DNA of 64,000 nucleotides from Thermosipho atlanticus DSM 15807. GTDB lineage: Bacteria; Thermotogota; Thermotogae; Thermotogales; Fervidobacteriaceae. Made by a program: the position numbers and the translations under genes. The stretch is taken from assembly GCF_900129985.1 (NCBI RefSeq), contig NZ_FQXN01000002.1:248001-312000 (forward strand). The letters are read 5' to 3'. Positions within the stretch are counted from its first letter, which is position 1; every line of letters starts with the position of its first letter. Under the pieces are notes generated by a model, which saw nothing but the letters and a program-made list of their open reading frames with translations, was not told the DNA's origin and made no database searches. Of this stretch, positions 39,652 to 49,539 are shown in pieces.

Positions 39652-40563
39652 TTAAAGATTTTTGATTTCTTCAAGGATCTTATTGACAATTATTTGTCCA
39701 ACTCTCAATTGTGCTTCTACAGTTGAGGCTCCTATATGAGGTGTTACTACAACATTAGGAAGTTCTAGAAGTTTCTTTCTTAACTCATCTGTTGGAGGTT
39801 CTACTTCGAAAACATCAAGACCGGCTGCATAAACTTTACCAGAAACAAGGGCATCATACAAAGCTTTTTCGTCTACTACACCTCCTCTTGCTGCGTTTAT
39901 AATTATCACTCCATCTTTCATAGCATCAAAAGCTTCTTTGTTTATAAGATGTTTTGTTTGCTCATTTAGTGGGACATGAATTGTAATGATGTCTGATTCT
40001 TTGAAAATTCTTTCAAGCTCAACAATTTCGACATTAAGATCTGTTTCTTTTACAAAAGGATCATAAGCGAGAACTTTCATATCAAATGCAAGAAGTCGTT
40101 TTGCAACTTCTTTCCCAATATTTCCAAAACCAATAATACCAGCAGTTCTTTTGTATAATTCGTGACCTTTTAATTCTTTTTTTGTCCATTTTCCTTCTTT
40201 TAAATCTATTGTACCTCTTGCTATGTGTCTTGCACAAGCAATCATCAAACCAATAGCTAATTCAGCAACTGAAATACCATTTGCTCCTGGAGTGTTAATG
40301 ACTTTGATCCCTTTTTCTTTTGCTTTTTCAACATCAACATTATCAAGTCCAGTACCAGCTCTTGCAATTATTTTCAAGTCTGTTCCAGCTTCAATTACAT
40401 CGGCAGTTACTTTGGTTGCACTTCTAACAACAAGAACATTAATGTTAGGCATTTCTTTTATTAATTCTTCCTTTTCTAAATGTCCTTCAGTAACTTCATA
40501 TCCAGAAGCTTTTAATTTTTCCATTGCCAATTTATCAAGAGGATCATTAACATGAATTCTCAT
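39652..40563 (-). CDS. serA: D-3-phosphoglycerate dehydrogenase (short form)
   Basis: 303 aa, a D-2-hydroxyacid dehydrogenase without ACT or other regulatory domain. The NAD motif is [17 protein letters not shown]. The catalytic Arg/Glu/His lie in [22 protein letters not shown] and VVTPHIGAS. First serine step: 3-phosphoglycerate to 3-phosphohydroxypyruvate. It overlaps the aminotransferase gene by 4 nt (ATGA), so the pair forms a unit. Glyoxylate or hydroxypyruvate reduction is the alternative. Lack of ACT suggests no serine feedback. Confidence 0.88.
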
Positions 40564-41705
40564 TCTTTATTTACCTCCTTATATAGTACTTCTTGAGCGG
40601 CTTTTACACCTTTCCCGAATTCAACTTTGTAACCTAGTTCATTCAATGTAAATTCTAAAGCGGATATTCCTATAATTGTATCAAATATACTTAAATAACC
40701 TAAAGTAGATATTCTAAATATTTTTCCTTTAAGGTGTTCTTGTCCACCTGCAATAGTTACACCATATTTGTCTCTCATTATTTTTGTGAGTTTTTTGCCA
40801 TCAACGCCTTCTGGAACCTTCACAGCGGTTGCAACATTACCAGGACGTTTTGAAAAGAGTTCAAGTCCCAGTGCTTGGACAGCTGCTCTTGTAGCATCAG
40901 CTAACATTTTATGCCTCTTCCAGACATTTTCTATTCCTTCATTTTTGATTATATTTATAGCTTTCCTTAACATATAGATGAGGTTTACTCCTGGAGTCCA
41001 AGGATTGTCAGGATATTTTTTGTTATATGCCTTTAGATTGAAATAATATCTTGAGTTATTGGAATTTTCAACTAATTTCCAAGCTTTTTCATTAAGTGCA
41101 ATAAATGCAAGTCCTGGTGGGAGCATAACACCTTTTTGTGAACCACTTACAACTACGTCAATTCCCCATTCGTCCATTTTTAAGGGTTCAGCTAAAAGAG
41201 CACTTACAGCATCAGTAACTAATACAACATCAGTGTCTCTAGTAATTTTTGCAATTCCTTCTAAATCAATTACTGTACCAGTCGATGTTTCACTATAAGT
41301 TGTAAAAACAGCCTTAGCATCTGGGTGTTTTTCAATAGCCTCTTTAATTTGTTCTGGAGTGACAGCTTCACCCCATTCTAATTTTAATGATACAATATTA
41401 ATGTTGTAAGCTTCAGCAATTTCTCTCCATCTTTCACCAAATTTTCCAGCTTCTACAATAATTGCTTTGTCTCCAGGATTTAAAAGGTTTGAAACAGCCG
41501 CTTCTAATGCCCCAGTACCGGAAGAGAGTAGTGTAAAAACTCTGTTTTCAGTTTGGAATAAATATTTCAACCCTTCAAGAGTTTCTTCAAGAATACTAAC
41601 AAATTGCGGAGTTCGATGATGGATAGTTTCCTTTGCACCTTCTAAAAGAATATCAGAAGGAACTGGAGTTGGGCCAGGAGCCAATAAGTAGTTTTTCTTT
41701 ATCAT
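40560..41705 (-). CDS. Class V aminotransferase (serine/alanine-glyoxylate or phosphoserine type)
   Basis: 381 aa. PLP Lys lies in [12 protein letters not shown]. The N-terminal signature [14 protein letters not shown] and the [12 protein letters not shown] segment mark the alanine-glyoxylate/serine-pyruvate subgroup. Paired with the SerA-like dehydrogenase, it most likely performs the transamination step of serine synthesis, a pairing also known in other Thermotogae. ATG 41705 is 8 nt after AGGAGG; GTG 41714 lies in the Shine-Dalgarno. The gene is divergent from the aminotransferase-buk operon. Confidence 0.82.
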
Positions 41706-41907
41706 TTGATACACCTCCTATGATTTGATTAGATTACACATATATTTTAAATTAAATTAAAGAAATAGAAAATGGTATATTTCATTAATTTTTTTCAATA
41801 AAACCTTAAAAAATTAAAATTTTCAGTTAAAACTTAGAAATTTAGAGTTTTACTATTTCTAAAATATATTGTACACTTATTATAGAATATTTTCAATTGT
41901 TTTAAAA

Positions 41908-41966
41908 TGCAAAAAATTGCACGCAAAAAATTGCAAAATGCAAGAAATTGCATACAAAAAATTAGA
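41908..41966 (+). promoter_or_regulatory. Array of four 14-bp boxes, consensus TGCAAAAAATTGCA
   Basis: Boxes at 41908-41921 (TGCAAAAAATTGCA), 41922-41935 (CGCAAAAAATTGCA), 41939-41952 (TGCAAGAAATTGCA) and 41953-41966 (TACAAAAAATTAGA, weaker). They are arranged as two abutting pairs separated by 3 nt. Each is itself a palindrome TGCAA-n4-TTGCA. They lie in the roughly 305-bp gene-free gap between the divergent serine and amino-acid fermentation operons. The rest of the gap is AT-rich and shows no gene; an A-rich stretch (41967-41992) leads to the Shine-Dalgarno at 41999. This is likely an operator array for an unidentified regulator. Confidence 0.7.
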
Positions 41967-42010: not shown

Positions 42011-43246
42011 ATGAATTATAAAGAGAAATATTCGAGATTGGGGAAATCTCTGCGTTCATCATTGATCAGAGAGCTTTTGAAATATGCTTCTATTCCAAAT
42101 GCTATTTCATTTGGTGGAGGGGTTCCTGATCCTGAGACTTTTCCAAGGAGGGAATTATCTCAAATAGCAGCGGAAGTTATTGAAAAAGAATATGCTTATG
42201 TTCTTCAATACAGTACTACTGAAGGTGATCCTGAACTTGCGAAACAGATGATCAATTTACTTGAAAGGCTATATGGTTTTGATAATTTAAACGAGGATAA
42301 TATAATGTTTACAACAGGTTCTCAACAAGCTCTTGAGCTTGTTGGAAAAATATTTTTAGATGAAGATAGCATTGCTATTGTTGAGGATCCATTTTATTTG
42401 GGAGCAGCTAGTGCATTTAGAATGAGAAATGCTAAATTTATTCCTATACCTTTAGAGGATGATGGAATGAATGTTGACTTATTGGAGAAAAGATTGCATG
42501 AATTGGATAATAAGGGATTAATTCCAAAAGTTAAATTTATCTATGTGATACCAAATTTTCATAATCCTGCAGGGGTTACTGTTTCTTTTGAAAAAAGAAA
42601 AAAAATTATTGAATTAGCTGAAAAATATGATTTATTGATTTTAGAAGATGATCCATACGGACTTTTAAGATTCGAAGGGGAACATATCCCATCGTTTTTT
42701 AAATTAGCAGAAAGGGGTAGAGTTGTTCTTCTAAATACTTTCAGTAAAATTCTTGCACCAGGTTTAAGAATTGGAGCAGTGCTTGGAGATAAAGAAATAA
42801 TTAGAAAATTTGTTTTAGCAAAACAAGGAACAGATCTTTGTAGTTCAGCATTAACTCAAAGAATAGCTGCAAGATATCTTGAAAGATATGATCTTGTTCA
42901 GCAAATAGCTCCAACAATAAAATTATATAAATCCAAGAAAGATGTCATGATGAAAGCTTTTGATGAGTATTTCTCAAAGATAAATGGAATAAAATGGATT
43001 AATCCTCATGGTGGATTATTTACTTGGGTAACACTTCCTGAAGGTTTTGACACAATGGAAATGTTCGAAATTGCAAAGAAAAAATTAGTTTTTTATATTC
43101 CAGGTCAGGCATTTACACCTGATGATAGAGTTTCACCATCGATGAGGATGTCATTCTGCCTACCTTCACATGAAAAAATTATAGAAGGAGTGAAGAGGTT
43201 AAGTGAAGTAATTGTTGAATATGGTAAATCTAAGGGGTTGATATAG
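42011..43246 (+). CDS. PLP-dependent aminotransferase (2-aminoadipate/branched-chain/aromatic type)
   Basis: 411 aa, fold-type I, class I/II. It has the N-terminal signature SIPNAISFGGGVPDPETFP, YSTTEGDPELAKQM, and the PLP Lys in NTFSKILAPGLRIG. It resembles LysN/kynurenine-type enzymes with broad specificity. It is the first gene of the operon leading to the butyrate kinases and 2-oxoacid ferredoxin oxidoreductase. It should supply 2-oxoacids from branched-chain or aromatic amino acids. The ATG is 7 nt after GGAGG, and the stop overlaps the buk GTG (TAGTG). Four operator-like boxes lie upstream. Confidence 0.88.
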   Translation: MNYKEKYSRLGKSLRSSLIRELLKYASIPNAISFGGGVPDPETFPRRELSQIAAEVIEKEYAYVLQYSTTEGDPELAKQMINLLERLYGFDNLNEDNIMFTTGSQQALELVGKIFLDEDSIAIVEDPFYLGAASAFRMRNAKFIPIPLEDDGMNVDLLEKRLHELDNKGLIPKVKFIYVIPNFHNPAGVTVSFEKRKKIIELAEKYDLLILEDDPYGLLRFEGEHIPSFFKLAERGRVVLLNTFSKILAPGLRIGAVLGDKEIIRKFVLAKQGTDLCSSALTQRIAARYLERYDLVQQIAPTIKLYKSKKDVMMKAFDEYFSKINGIKWINPHGGLFTWVTLPEGFDTMEMFEIAKKKLVFYIPGQAFTPDDRVSPSMRMSFCLPSHEKIIEGVKRLSEVIVEYGKSKGLI

Positions 43247-44305
43247 TGTTAATTTTAGTGATTAATCCTGGATCTACCAGTACAAAAGTTGCTATTTTCG
43301 AAAACGAAAAGAAAAAAGTACAAAAAGTTTTGAAACATCCGGTAGGTGAATTAGAAAAATTTGACAATCTTATGGCTCAAAAAGAATTTAGGGAAAAAGC
43401 TATATTGGAATTTTTAAATGATGAAGGATATAAATTAGAAGATTTTGATGCAATAGCTTGTCGAGGAGGAGTTTTACCACCTTTAAAAAGTGGAACTTAT
43501 ATAGTCAATGAAGAAATGGTTAGATATTTAAAAGATAAATCTCGAGTTCAACATGCTTCAAATTTAGCTGCTGTTATTGGATATGAACTTTCTAGTGGAA
43601 AAATTCCTGTTTACATAACTGATCCGGTATCAGTTGATGAAATGATAAATGAAGCAAGAATTTCAGGGATTCCTGAAATTGAAAGATTAAGCCTTGCACA
43701 TGCATTGAATATAAAAGCAGTTGCAAGGAAAGTAGCATTTGAGTTGGGAAAAAAGTATGAAGAACTTAATATGGTTATTGCACATCTTGGTGGAGGCATT
43801 TCCGTGACAGCTCATGAAAAGGGAAAAATGATAGATGTGAACAACGCAAATGATGAAGGTCCTTTCAGTCCTGAGAGAACTGGGGAGCTTCCTGTTGGAG
43901 ATGTTGTAAAATTATGTTTTTCCGGAAAATATTCGCGCAATGAAATTAAAAAAATGTTTGTAGGAAAGGGAGGATTAGTAGCATATTTAGGGACTAACGA
44001 CATGAAAAAAGCCATTGAATTGTCTAAAAGTGATGAGCATGCAAAATTGGTCGTTGAAGCGATGGCGTATCAAATAGCGAAGGAAATTGGTGGAATGTGT
44101 GTAGTTTTGAAGGGGAAAGTTGATGCAATTGTCATTACTGGAGGAATTGCGAATAATTCTAATTTTGTTGAAAAAATAAAGTCTTACATTTACAAATTTG
44201 GGCCTATATTTACCATTCCTGGTGAATTTGAGATGGAAGCGCTTGCTTTGGGAGCTTTAAGAGTTTTAAAGAAAGAAGAACAAGCCTTAGTTTGGGGTGA
44301 GAAAT

Positions 44306-44322
<17 letters not shown>
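43246..44322 (+). CDS. buk: Butyrate (branched-chain fatty acid) kinase 1
   Basis: 358 aa of the acetate/butyrate kinase superfamily. The phosphate-1 loop is [13 protein letters not shown]; also seen are ACRGGVLPP, AHLGGGISVTAHEKG and ITGGIANNS. It turns acyl phosphate plus ADP into acid plus ATP. The 17-residue start INPGSTSTK is shared with the second kinase at 45211, but the proteins differ clearly along their length, so they are an old duplication. It starts at GTG overlapping the aminotransferase stop and overlaps the phosphotransacylase frame. Confidence 0.92.
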
Positions 44323-46939
<2,617 letters not shown>

Positions 46940-46953
46940 GGAGGTCGTGAAAA

Positions 46954-47175
46954 ATGCCTAAAGTAAAAGGTTATATTGAAATTGATAAGGAAAGGTGTAA
47001 GGGTTGTGGGTTGTGTATTGAAGCTTGTCCTACAAAAGTAATAGAATTTTCTGAAAGCTTTAACAGTAAAGGTTATCATCCAGCAGAAGCAAAATATATG
47101 GAAAAGTGTATAGCTTGTGGATTTTGTTATAGAATGTGTCCCGATGTTTGTATAACAGTATATAGGGAAGAGTGA
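46954..47175 (+). CDS. 2-oxoacid:ferredoxin oxidoreductase, 2[4Fe-4S] delta subunit
   Basis: 73 aa, a ferredoxin-like subunit with CKGCGLCIEACP and CIACGFCYRMCP, each a [4Fe-4S] motif. It carries electrons out of the thiamine diphosphate site to ferredoxin. The ATG follows AAGGAGG. It overlaps the frame of the alpha subunit only if that gene started at 47172; with the preferred start at 47187 there is an 11-nt gap. Confidence 0.92.
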   Translation: MPKVKGYIEIDKERCKGCGLCIEACPTKVIEFSESFNSKGYHPAEAKYMEKCIACGFCYRMCPDVCITVYREE

Positions 47176-47186
47176 GGAGGGAAAGT

Positions 47187-48251
47187 ATGGAAAAAGTAAT
47201 GGTAAAGGGAACAGAGGCAATAGGAGAGGCTGCAATAAGAGCTGGTTGTAGGCATTTCTTTGGATATCCTATAACTCCTCAAAGTGAGCTCCCAGAATAT
47301 ATGTCTAAAAGACTTCCTGAAGTTGGAGGAGTTTTTCTTCAAACAGAAAGTGAAGTTGCGACTGTGAATATGTTGTACGGTGCAGCATGTACCGGTACAA
47401 GAGTAATGACTTCTACATCTTCCCCCGGTTTTAGTTTGATGATGGAAGGTGTATCTTATATGGCATGTGCGCAATTGCCCGCTGTTTTTGTAAATGTTGT
47501 GCGTGGAGGCCCGGGACTTGGTGACATTCAACCAGCTCAAGGAGATTATTGGCAAGCAACCAAAGGAGGCGGCCATGGTGATTACAAATTGATTGTTTTA
47601 GCCCCTTCAACAGTCCAAGAAGCTGTTGATTTGACGGTTCTTGCTTTTGATCTTGCAGATAAATATAGAACGCCGACCCTTATATTAGCTGATGGATTAC
47701 TCGGACAAATGATGGAACCAGTTGAATTTCCAGAATTTAGAGATTTGTCGACATTACCTGATCACAGTAGTTGGGCAATGACGGGTGCCAAAAATAGAGA
47801 ACCACATATAATTACTTCTTTTGATATAGATCCATATGTTTTGGAAAAAATGAATTTAGAACTTGTTAAGAAATATAAAGAAATTGAGAAAAATGAAGTG
47901 AGATGGGAAGAGTATGAAACGGGAGATGCTGAAATTATTATAACTGCGTTTGGTACTGTTGCAAGAATAGTAAAAAGTGTTGTTGAAATGGCAAGAAAAG
48001 ATGGTTTAAAAGTTGGTTTGTTTAGGCCAATTACTGTATGGCCATTTCCATATGAACCACTTGAAAAATTGGCTGATAAGGTAGAATTATTCTTTGATGT
48101 TGAAATGAACATGGGACAAATGTTAGAAGATGTAAAACTAGGAGTAAAAAATAAGAAACCAGTTGCATTTTATTCGAGAATGGGTGGAGTTGTGCCTACA
48201 CCGACCGAGATTTACGAAGCATTGAAAAGAGAGATTGGGAGGCGAGAATAA
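47187..48251 (+). CDS. 2-oxoacid:ferredoxin oxidoreductase alpha subunit (VorB/KorA-like)
   Basis: 354 aa. The pyrimidine-binding/transketolase N-terminal part carries GYPITPQSELPEYM and STSSPGFSLMMEGVSYMACAQLP, typical of the alpha subunit of 2-oxoisovalerate/2-oxoglutarate ferredoxin oxidoreductases. A C-terminal domain (LKVGLFRPITVWPFPY) follows. It decarboxylates 2-oxoacids to acyl-CoA with ferredoxin reduction. The branched-chain (VOR) reaction is favoured by the buk-ptb neighbours. Start ATG 47187 follows GGAGGGA. Confidence 0.9.
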   Translation: MEKVMVKGTEAIGEAAIRAGCRHFFGYPITPQSELPEYMSKRLPEVGGVFLQTESEVATVNMLYGAACTGTRVMTSTSSPGFSLMMEGVSYMACAQLPAVFVNVVRGGPGLGDIQPAQGDYWQATKGGGHGDYKLIVLAPSTVQEAVDLTVLAFDLADKYRTPTLILADGLLGQMMEPVEFPEFRDLSTLPDHSSWAMTGAKNREPHIITSFDIDPYVLEKMNLELVKKYKEIEKNEVRWEEYETGDAEIIITAFGTVARIVKSVVEMARKDGLKVGLFRPITVWPFPYEPLEKLADKVELFFDVEMNMGQMLEDVKLGVKNKKPVAFYSRMGGVVPTPTEIYEALKREIGRRE

Positions 48252-49003
48252 TGAAAAAACTTTTATATAAAATGCCTGAGTCATTGAGTGGCAAGGAATT
48301 TACATATTGTCCTGGGTGTCACCATGGTATTATTCATAGATTAATTGCAGAGGTTGTTGATGAACTTGGAATAAGAGAAAAAACTCTTGTTGTAGCTCCA
48401 ATTGGTTGCTCGGTTTTTGCATATCAATTTTTTAATATGGATGGAACAATAGCTGCTCATGGAAGAGCACCTGCCGTTGCTACGGGAATGAAAAGAGCAA
48501 GGCCAGATCTTTATGTTTTTACATATCAAGGTGATGGTGATCTTGCGGCTATTGGTACTGCTGAGATAATGCATGCAGCTAATAGAGGTGAGAAAATAAC
48601 GACGATATTTGTAAATAATGCGATATATGGAATGACAGGTGGACAGATGGCACCTACCACTCTTCTTGGAATGAAGACTACGACCACACCGTATGGTAGA
48701 ACAGCTGAAAATGATGGTTATCCTATGCATATGTGTGAATTTTTGAAAGAAGCTAAGGGAGTTGCATATCTTGCAAGAACAAAAGTTACAACACCTCAAG
48801 ATGTAGAAAAAACTAAGAAAGCCATTAAAAAAGCATTTTTAGCTCAAATTAAAGGAATAGGATTTGGTTTAGTTGAAGTTTTGTCAACTTGTCCTACAAA
48901 CTGGGGTATTGATCCTATTTCAGCTATGAAATGGCTTGAAGAGAAAATGATACCAGAATATCCACTTGGAGTATTTGTGGATAAGGTTGGTGATGAAAAA
49001 TGA
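48251..49003 (+). CDS. 2-oxoacid:ferredoxin oxidoreductase beta subunit (VorA/KorB-like)
   Basis: 250 aa, the thiamine diphosphate-binding subunit. It has YCPGCHHGI, HGRAPAVATGMK, the TPP/Mg motif GDGDLAAIGTAEIMHAANR followed by NNAIYGMTGGQ, and CPTNWGIDP. The ATG is in the TAATG junction with the alpha gene, and the 3' end overlaps the gamma gene by 4 nt. Confidence 0.92.
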   Translation: MKKLLYKMPESLSGKEFTYCPGCHHGIIHRLIAEVVDELGIREKTLVVAPIGCSVFAYQFFNMDGTIAAHGRAPAVATGMKRARPDLYVFTYQGDGDLAAIGTAEIMHAANRGEKITTIFVNNAIYGMTGGQMAPTTLLGMKTTTTPYGRTAENDGYPMHMCEFLKEAKGVAYLARTKVTTPQDVEKTKKAIKKAFLAQIKGIGFGLVEVLSTCPTNWGIDPISAMKWLEEKMIPEYPLGVFVDKVGDEK

Positions 49004-49539
49004 GGTTCATTTTTGCAGGTTTTGGTGGACAAGGTGTCATGTTAATGGGACAAGTATTAGCTTATGCAGGAATGATTGAAGGTAAAAATGTTACCTGGAT
49101 GCCTTCATATGGTCCTGAAATGAGAGGTGGGACTGCAAACTGTACAGTTGTTGTAAGTGATGAACAAGTAGCTTCTCCTGTAGTTGATAAAGCTGAAGTA
49201 ATTGTAGCAATGAATATACCTTCAATGTTAAAATTTCAAGATTTTTTAGCCGAAAATAGCTACTTCTTCTTGAATAAATCTGTGATTGACAGAGAACCTA
49301 ATAAAAGAGAAGGGGTGAAAGTTTTTAAAATTGAGTGTAATGAAATAGCAGATAAATTAGGAAATTTGAAAGTCGCTAATATGGTAATGTTGGGGGCAGT
49401 TATTGGGGCAACATCAATTGTTTCAAAAGAAAGTGTTTTTAAAGCACTTGAAAAGAAATTGGTTGGGAAAAAAGCTGGTTTAATTGAGTTAAATAAATTA
49501 GCAATAGAAGAAGGAATAAAGAGAGTTAGAGAGCAGTAG
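49000..49539 (+). CDS. 2-oxoacid:ferredoxin oxidoreductase gamma subunit (VorC/KorC-like)
   Basis: 179 aa. GFGGQGVMLMGQVLAYAG at the N-terminus and PSYGPEMRGGTANCTVVVSD are the family hallmarks; the subunit completes the alpha-beta-gamma-delta complex. ATGA overlap with the beta subunit. A strong terminator follows, closing the aminotransferase-buk-ptb-KOR operon. Confidence 0.93.
   Translation: MRFIFAGFGGQGVMLMGQVLAYAGMIEGKNVTWMPSYGPEMRGGTANCTVVVSDEQVASPVVDKAEVIVAMNIPSMLKFQDFLAENSYFFLNKSVIDREPNKREGVKVFKIECNEIADKLGNLKVANMVMLGAVIGATSIVSKESVFKALEKKLVGKKAGLIELNKLAIEEGIKRVREQ

Follow-up and report, generated by a model that had tools for sequence, protein, structure and literature searches.

Boxes upstream of an amino-acid fermentation operon in Thermosipho: probably a BkdR-type enhancer kept after the loss of sigma-54

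The boxes that precede the aminotransferase-buk-ptb-2-oxoacid:ferredoxin oxidoreductase (KOR) operon of Thermosipho atlanticus DSM 15807 are best explained as a BkdR enhancer that was kept after the loss of sigma-54 and rewired to sigma-70-type control, an explanation that we consider probable on the sequence data. The stretch 41908-41952 almost certainly represents BkdR-type sites, and operon control very probably no longer uses sigma-54. The window, i.e., the whole 64,000-nt stretch of DNA that was analyzed, corresponds to C2:248001-312000 of a 1.64-Mb genome in 11 contigs. What came as a surprise lies outside the coordinates covered by an earlier, sequence-only reading of this DNA: judged by its sequence, the genome is devoid of sigma-54 and its BkdR orthologue is devoid of the GAFTGA loop. 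The coordinates of the features are collected in Table 1. Within the operon, ptb lies between two distinct butyrate kinase genes, and the 214-aa P-loop-like protein encoded further downstream matched no Pfam or NCBIfam family.

Table 1. Features of the box region and of the genes around it (window coordinates, unless C2 or L106 is named)
Feature	Position	Strand	Remark
Divergent second gene	39652..40563	-	presumably D-3-phosphoglycerate dehydrogenase-like, by its sequence
Divergent class V aminotransferase (serine/glyoxylate type)	40560..41714	-	
Proposed sigma-70-type operon promoter, TTTACT-N17-TACACT	41849..41877	+	30 nt before box 1
Proposed divergent sigma-70-type promoter, TTGAAA-N17-TACAAT	41868..41896	-	overlaps the + promoter; 10/12 consensus matches
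Box 1, TGCAAAAAATTGCA	41908..41921	.	perfect TGCAA-N4-TTGCA, read from the sequence
Box 2, CGCAAAAAATTGCA	41922..41935	.	1 mismatch; abuts box 1
Box 3, TGCAAGAAATTGCA	41939..41952	.	perfect; 3 bp past box 2
Claimed fourth box, TACAAAAAATTAGA	41953..41966	.	degenerate: 3/10 specified positions wrong
Class I/II aminotransferase	42011..43246	+	first operon gene
Butyrate kinase, first copy	43246..44322	+	
Phosphate butyryltransferase (ptb)	44297..45211	+	
Butyrate kinase, second copy	45211..46302	+	
214-aa P-loop-like protein	46295..46939	+	between second buk and ferredoxin oxidoreductase
2-Oxoacid:ferredoxin oxidoreductase, alpha subunit (VorB-type)	47172..48251	+	
2-Oxoacid:ferredoxin oxidoreductase, beta subunit	48251..49003	+	
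2-Oxoacid:ferredoxin oxidoreductase, gamma subunit	49000..49539	+	
BkdR orthologue, 566 aa	C2:318560-320260 (L106:6560-8260)		28.6 kb from the boxes, 6.6 kb past the window end

The sequence-only reading had described four 14-bp boxes at 41908-41966, with a spacing of 14 bp, a 3-nt gap and a 31-bp period. The first three boxes were found where it had placed them, and the geometry was confirmed, as the box starts are spaced 14, 17 and 31 bp apart and the gap between boxes 2 and 3 (41936-41938) reads AAA. The fourth box was not upheld: 41953-41966 is probably not a site, and three boxes are the better reading, because this stretch misses three of the ten specified positions and showed no conservation in sister species when the upstream regions were aligned. 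Perfect TGCAA-N4-TTGCA sites occur only twice in the whole genome, both times in the array, so that the scan proposed earlier did not return a random density, and with up to one mismatch 97 sites were counted vs 31 for the reversed pattern. In relatives, a 28-bp double box (at most three mismatches) is present about once per genome, nearly always at the aminotransferase locus, and the reversed-pattern control gave 0-2 matches in most genomes. The restriction of the perfect sites to this locus and the excess over the reversed-pattern controls argue that the box array is not due to chance. Other array matches with 2-3 mismatches lay in or near unrelated genes at the four loci inspected, and were treated as chance.

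The upstream regions of the orthologous aminotransferase gene were then gathered from ~50 genomes of the class. Here f1 denotes the window's family, g1 the window's genus Thermosipho, g5 its sister genus, and g4 the RpoN-bearing sister of the derived clade g1+g5 within f1. A 14+14 array is located ahead of the aminotransferase gene in 20/20 genomes of f1 and in 10 of the 11 of f2, and it was also found there in f6, f7, f8 and f11. A variant with a box-3 bp-box arrangement was observed in f4 and in one f5 genome, the array being poor in two other f5 genomes, and the 28-bp double-box scan detected no array in any of the 14 f3 genomes. Box 3, at a distance of exactly 3 bp, persists in g1, g4, f2 and f6, whereas g5 has lost it. 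Boxes 1 and 2 are perfect or nearly perfect in all eight g1/g5 genomes, and the flanking AT-rich DNA has diverged. The array is thus conserved in relatives, and the lack of conservation that had been named as counting against it did not occur.

BkdR is a PAS-PAS-AAA+-Fis activator of branched-chain amino-acid catabolism, and sigma-54 activators work as AAA+ hexamers. The earlier proposal of an array for a multimeric regulator ahead of the operon, possibly including the divergent serine-type genes, would agree with this. That reading did not recognize the consensus as any known site, which has to be corrected, since we read the same array as a BkdR-type enhancer in Bacilli and Clostridia. When GTDB genomes were scanned for exact matches to the double box, 68 stretches were returned and, besides Thermotogota, most of the intergenic ones were in Bacilli and Clostridia (genera including Brevibacillus, Exiguobacterium, Desulfosporosinus, Lutispora, Sedimentibacter and Anaerosolibacter). 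A GAFTGA-type enhancer-binding protein (EBP) is encoded at 36 Firmicutes array loci, and in 34 of them the stop codon of the bkdR-like gene is at most ~100 bp from the array; at 87-200 bp past the array there is a sigma-54 promoter, and then typically ptb, leucine dehydrogenase (bcd) or buk. In the sigma-54-bearing Thermotogota, the array start lies ~92-118 bp (187 in f7) upstream of a TTGGCACG....TTGC/TTGA promoter (-24/-12), which precedes the gene. This location, beside bkdR-like genes and the sigma-54 promoters of bkd-type operons, points to the array being the BkdR UAS or enhancer, and its format, i.e., abutting TGCAA-N4-TTGCA boxes in a 14-bp register with an optional third box after 3 bp, is the one seen in the window. 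The Firmicutes EBPs that adjoin the array are 46-52% identical to the Thermosipho protein, many of them over the full length, and the three that were scanned have the same PAS-PAS-AAA-lid-Fis architecture. The EBP by the array in Brevibacillus (L274:5749-7827) carries an extra N-terminal region of ~115 aa that resembles the N-domain of dihydrodipicolinate reductase (PF01113), which is absent in the Thermotogota protein. For the BkdR assignment the Firmicutes array-linked EBPs were compared, and the BkdR of Bacillus thuringiensis was taken from its published description, with two PAS/PAC domains and an experimentally demonstrated action on a sigma-54 ptb promoter (PMC4428206); in Bacillus, BkdR activates the bkd operon together with sigma-L, i.e., sigma-54 (Debarbouille 1999, as cited in PMC4428206). 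From these similarities we infer that the array is bound by the Thermosipho BkdR orthologue.

The comparison of the aminotransferase upstream regions (L016-L045 and L144-L163) also revealed two kinds of -24/-12 promoter. Those of f1, f2, f8 and f11 read GG-N9-G(C/A), and RpoN is short there (open frames of ~297-390 aa); f5, f6 and f7 have the canonical GG-N10-GC, which is also found in Firmicutes, and an RpoN of ~403-445 aa. In the former four families a reduced sigma-54 is possibly paired with a promoter one base shorter. The rpoN gene of genome G006 (L130:3688-4557) encodes a 289-aa sigma-54 in which Pfam recognized the DNA-binding domain, no more than a fragment of the core-binding domain, and no activator-interacting domain. 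Genome-wide counts of -24/-12-like sites (spacing of 9 or 10 bp) were not used to estimate regulon size, the one-mismatch background being too high. Helical phasing of the array to the -24 element (Rayleigh p ~0.002 at 10.5 bp, at the family level in Thermotogota) is suggestive only and was not retained as a firm result, because the representative distances were hand-picked, several periods were tried, and the phasing was not seen in Firmicutes.

The BkdR orthologue of Thermosipho has the domain order PAS-PAS-Sigma54_activat-AAA lid-Fis HTH, and a PF00158 search detected one strong EBP per f1 genome, except in the 60%-complete G019, with a weaker second one in a few. The regulator gene usually adjoins its target operon in Firmicutes; here 28.6 kb separate the two, and in the six other g1/g5 genomes that have both on one contig the distance from regulator to array is ~25-45 kb. 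Because the genes are not adjacent in Thermosipho, the link between regulator and operon rests on homology and on the phyletic pattern. The regulator gene ends a row of genes (C2:312251-320260; L106:251-8260) that encodes DUF4147/MOFRL, 2-hydroxyacid dehydrogenase-like, B12-binding MutE-like, D-Ala-D-Ala-ligase-like and UPF0047 proteins, and it is overlapped by the UPF0047 gene by a few bases.

RpoN was absent by HMM from all eight genomes of g1 and g5 (4+4; 96-99% complete), and a search with the g4 RpoN protein gave no match in them, although the positive controls were found. RpoN is present in g2, in g3 (except the 60%-complete G019), in g4, in nearly all f2 genomes and in several other families; marginal PF04552 matches in f3 (~20-22 bits over ~35-60 positions) were read as chance. 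The gene order in g4 is psuG-rpoN-yfcE-yigZ-aminotransferase (we presume the names psuG, yfcE and yigZ from the gene sequences), and in the window's genome yfcE comes directly after psuG, with ~87 bp between them. This synteny indicates a clean loss of rpoN. Furthermore, no -24/-12 promoter was found in any of the eight g1/g5 upstream regions. The GAFTGA loop reads GAFLGA in the window's species, GAFLGA or GAFFGA across g1, and GTFIGT, DAFMGT or a shortened form in g5, and every RpoN-bearing f1 and f2 genome has GAFTGA or GSFTGA. Judged by its sequence, the Thermosipho protein is a BkdR relative by descent that falls outside the definition of a functional sigma-54 activator. Most replacements of the GAFTGA threonine are inactive, and sigma-54 occurs in only some Thermotogae (PMC3162934); a literature search found no paper joining Thermosipho or Fervidobacterium with sigma54.

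A maximum-likelihood tree of 46 BkdR orthologues requires three changes each for RpoN and GAFTGA. The loop is lost in 12/12 RpoN-lacking genomes and intact in 30 of the 31 RpoN-bearing genomes scored, and the clades with both losses are g1+g5, f4 and f9; since there are only three, a paired test of RpoN vs GAFTGA loss cannot reach significance, and the pattern, though consistent, falls short of proof. Loop loss in the f4 proteins left Walker A in place, whereas in the f9 proteins the Walker motifs are altered as well. Genome G050 of f9 has RpoN although its BkdR orthologue is without GAFTGA, so that loop loss need not follow the loss of sigma-54. Upstream of its aminotransferase gene, G050 (L154) has a double box with a different consensus, TGAAAAAAATTTCG TGAAAAATTTTTCA. 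A covariation of the recognition helix with the boxes (RNLYYK with a TGAAA-type array in f9) was considered and rejected, as Firmicutes RNLYYK proteins adjoin TGCAA arrays. In the f4 genomes G057 and G045 (L255, L259), which are without RpoN, the box-3 bp-box array is located ~270-300 bp upstream of the gene and a sigma-70-like TACAAT element lies downstream of the boxes, a geometry opposite to that of Thermosipho.

Alignment of the eight g1/g5 upstream regions revealed a strongly conserved block (~41847-41897) that is followed by the boxes, and in this block we infer two overlapping sigma-70-type promoters from the sequence. The one on the + strand is conserved in all eight genomes, with TATAAT as the -10 in one sister species; in the window it has 8/12 consensus matches, below the threshold of the promoter tool. 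In g5 the stretch between the boxes and the Shine-Dalgarno sequence is only ~40 nt long, which argues that the operon's promoter lies ahead of the boxes or inside them. We propose that in the ancestor, as in living relatives and in Bacilli and Clostridia, BkdR bound the array and its GAFTGA loop opened the sigma-54 promoter of an operon for the fermentation of branched-chain amino/keto acids. In g1 and g5 rpoN was then cleanly lost, the -24/-12 promoter went and GAFTGA decayed, the regulator and two to three boxes being retained; the operon would now be read from the sigma-70-type promoter that directly precedes the boxes. These would thus come to lie at ~+24 to +69 of the operon transcript, and the modified BkdR would be a ligand-controlled repressor, much as TyrR is on sigma-70 promoters, the expected ligand being a branched-chain amino or keto acid. 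Since +24 to +69 is a repressor position, repression is the effect on the operon that we moderately favor.

Relative to the divergent transcript, the same boxes would be at ~-46 to -90, which is an activator position, and an effect on the divergent genes is a serious possibility. In its strong form, in which the BkdR orthologue mainly activates the sigma-70 promoter of the class V aminotransferase/phosphoglycerate dehydrogenase genes and the fermentation operon is secondary or unaffected, this explanation seems unlikely. The - strand promoter is the better consensus match, and in each of the eight g1/g5 genomes 11 nt separate its -35 hexamer from box 1. Visual inspection, with no null model, also showed a - strand -10-like element in g3 and f2, at ~34-36 bp from the array. 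However, the boxes stay with the aminotransferase operon in f5, f6, f7 and f8 despite a different divergent gene, and the Firmicutes array serves the ptb/bcd/buk side.

A second alternative is that array and regulator are functionless relics of the lost sigma-54 system, as would be suggested by the disappearance of sigma-54, promoter and GAFTGA, and by the absence of the third box and of part of the AAA loop in g5. This is improbable in view of the selection to which both appear to be subject. Boxes 1 and 2 have stayed (nearly) perfect in eight genomes amid diverged AT-rich DNA, and the g1/g5 regulators retain intact Walker A and Walker B motifs, recognition helix and arginine finger, the HTH and the PAS domains being kept across two genera. 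The dN/dS ratio is ≤0.1 wherever dS could be estimated, dS being saturated for some domain pairs. The AAA domain has a similarity of 76.1% between g1/g5 and g4 vs 80.5% between g4 and g2/g3; the other four domains show the reverse trend, so that AAA alone is accelerated in g1/g5, which fits the loss of one interaction and not the decay of the whole protein. These sequence comparisons indicated that the BkdR orthologue and the boxes are under purifying selection in Thermosipho.

Lrp-type sites are AT-rich palindromes about three helical turns apart, and from the shape of the boxes and their 31-bp period our own first idea was an Lrp/AsnC regulator. It was dropped because the array adjoins bkdR-like genes and sigma-54 promoters, a link that is consistent in distant phyla, and the joint absence of array and BkdR orthologue in f3 also speaks against it; binding of the boxes by an unrelated regulator of this or another kind is therefore very improbable. 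A role of the boxes at the RNA level, as tandem 5-bp hairpins of a 5' leader, is hardly credible, since the leader does fold better than shuffles (z -2.7, 3/200 as good; one hairpin per box), but any DNA palindrome folds likewise and the array is upstream of the sigma-54 promoter, and hence outside the operon transcript, in relatives and Firmicutes.

The preferred explanation, a BkdR enhancer kept and rewired, can be compared with several known systems. Like the BkdR of the Bacillus BkdR/sigma-L system, e.g., HD73_4469 of B. thuringiensis (PMC4428206), the Thermosipho protein has two PAS domains, an AAA+ domain and a Fis HTH; ptb, buk and a complex that oxidizes branched-chain 2-oxoacids make up the presumed target in Thermosipho as they do the target in Bacillus bkd, and the array is shared with Bacilli and Clostridia, where it is located between a bkdR-like gene and the target. 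Unlike Bacillus bkd, Thermosipho is without sigma-54, GAFTGA and a -24/-12 promoter, its regulator gene is far from the operon, and a ferredoxin oxidoreductase takes the place of the dehydrogenase complex. TyrR, DhaR, HupR and VpsR have likewise lost the contact with sigma-54 and kept the AAA+ core, with GAFTGA altered or deleted, and a sigma-70-type target promoter was shown for TyrR, DhaR and HupR (PMC3162934). The Thermosipho BkdR belongs to another subfamily, and by analogy it may work like TyrR. Unlike in the TyrR group, however, close relatives still have sigma-54-using orthologues, their promoter and the ancestral enhancer, so that the conversion is traceable in its successive steps. 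EBPs of Fusobacterium and Jannaschia were also kept without sigma-54 and with the GAFTGA threonine replaced; the passages of PMC3162934 consulted do not trace their DNA target sites, as is done here for those of Thermosipho. Clostridiales sigma-54 regulons (PMC6615313) are similar in having Fis-type UAS 100-250 bp upstream of amino-acid fermentation promoters; many of their UAS motifs are TGT-N10-12-ACA, unlike TGCAA-N4-TTGCA, and the main text lists a tyrB-iorAB-butK regulon (ZypR) and names no bkd or ptb target.

The conversion of a sigma-54 activator into a sigma-70 regulator, which TyrR must have undergone, is known mostly from its end points. Here one bacterial family holds the ancestral state (RpoN, GAFTGA, -24/-12 promoter and array), the derived state (array only) and an RpoN-bearing sister (g4), and two further families of the class offer parallel cases, so that the conversion is directly testable. 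It is conceivable, if rather doubtful, that in sigma-54-bearing Thermotogota the array already served both the sigma-54 operon promoter and a close divergent sigma-70 promoter, and that this double duty let the regulator survive the loss of rpoN, drop its loop and become a pure sigma-70 regulator in the Thermosipho clade and, in parallel, in f4 and f9; if true, it would give a replicated natural series of enhancer-to-operator conversion. In addition, these results propose which protein regulates the fermentation of branched-chain amino acids in Thermosipho and, via the motif, in other Thermotogota and in many Firmicutes.
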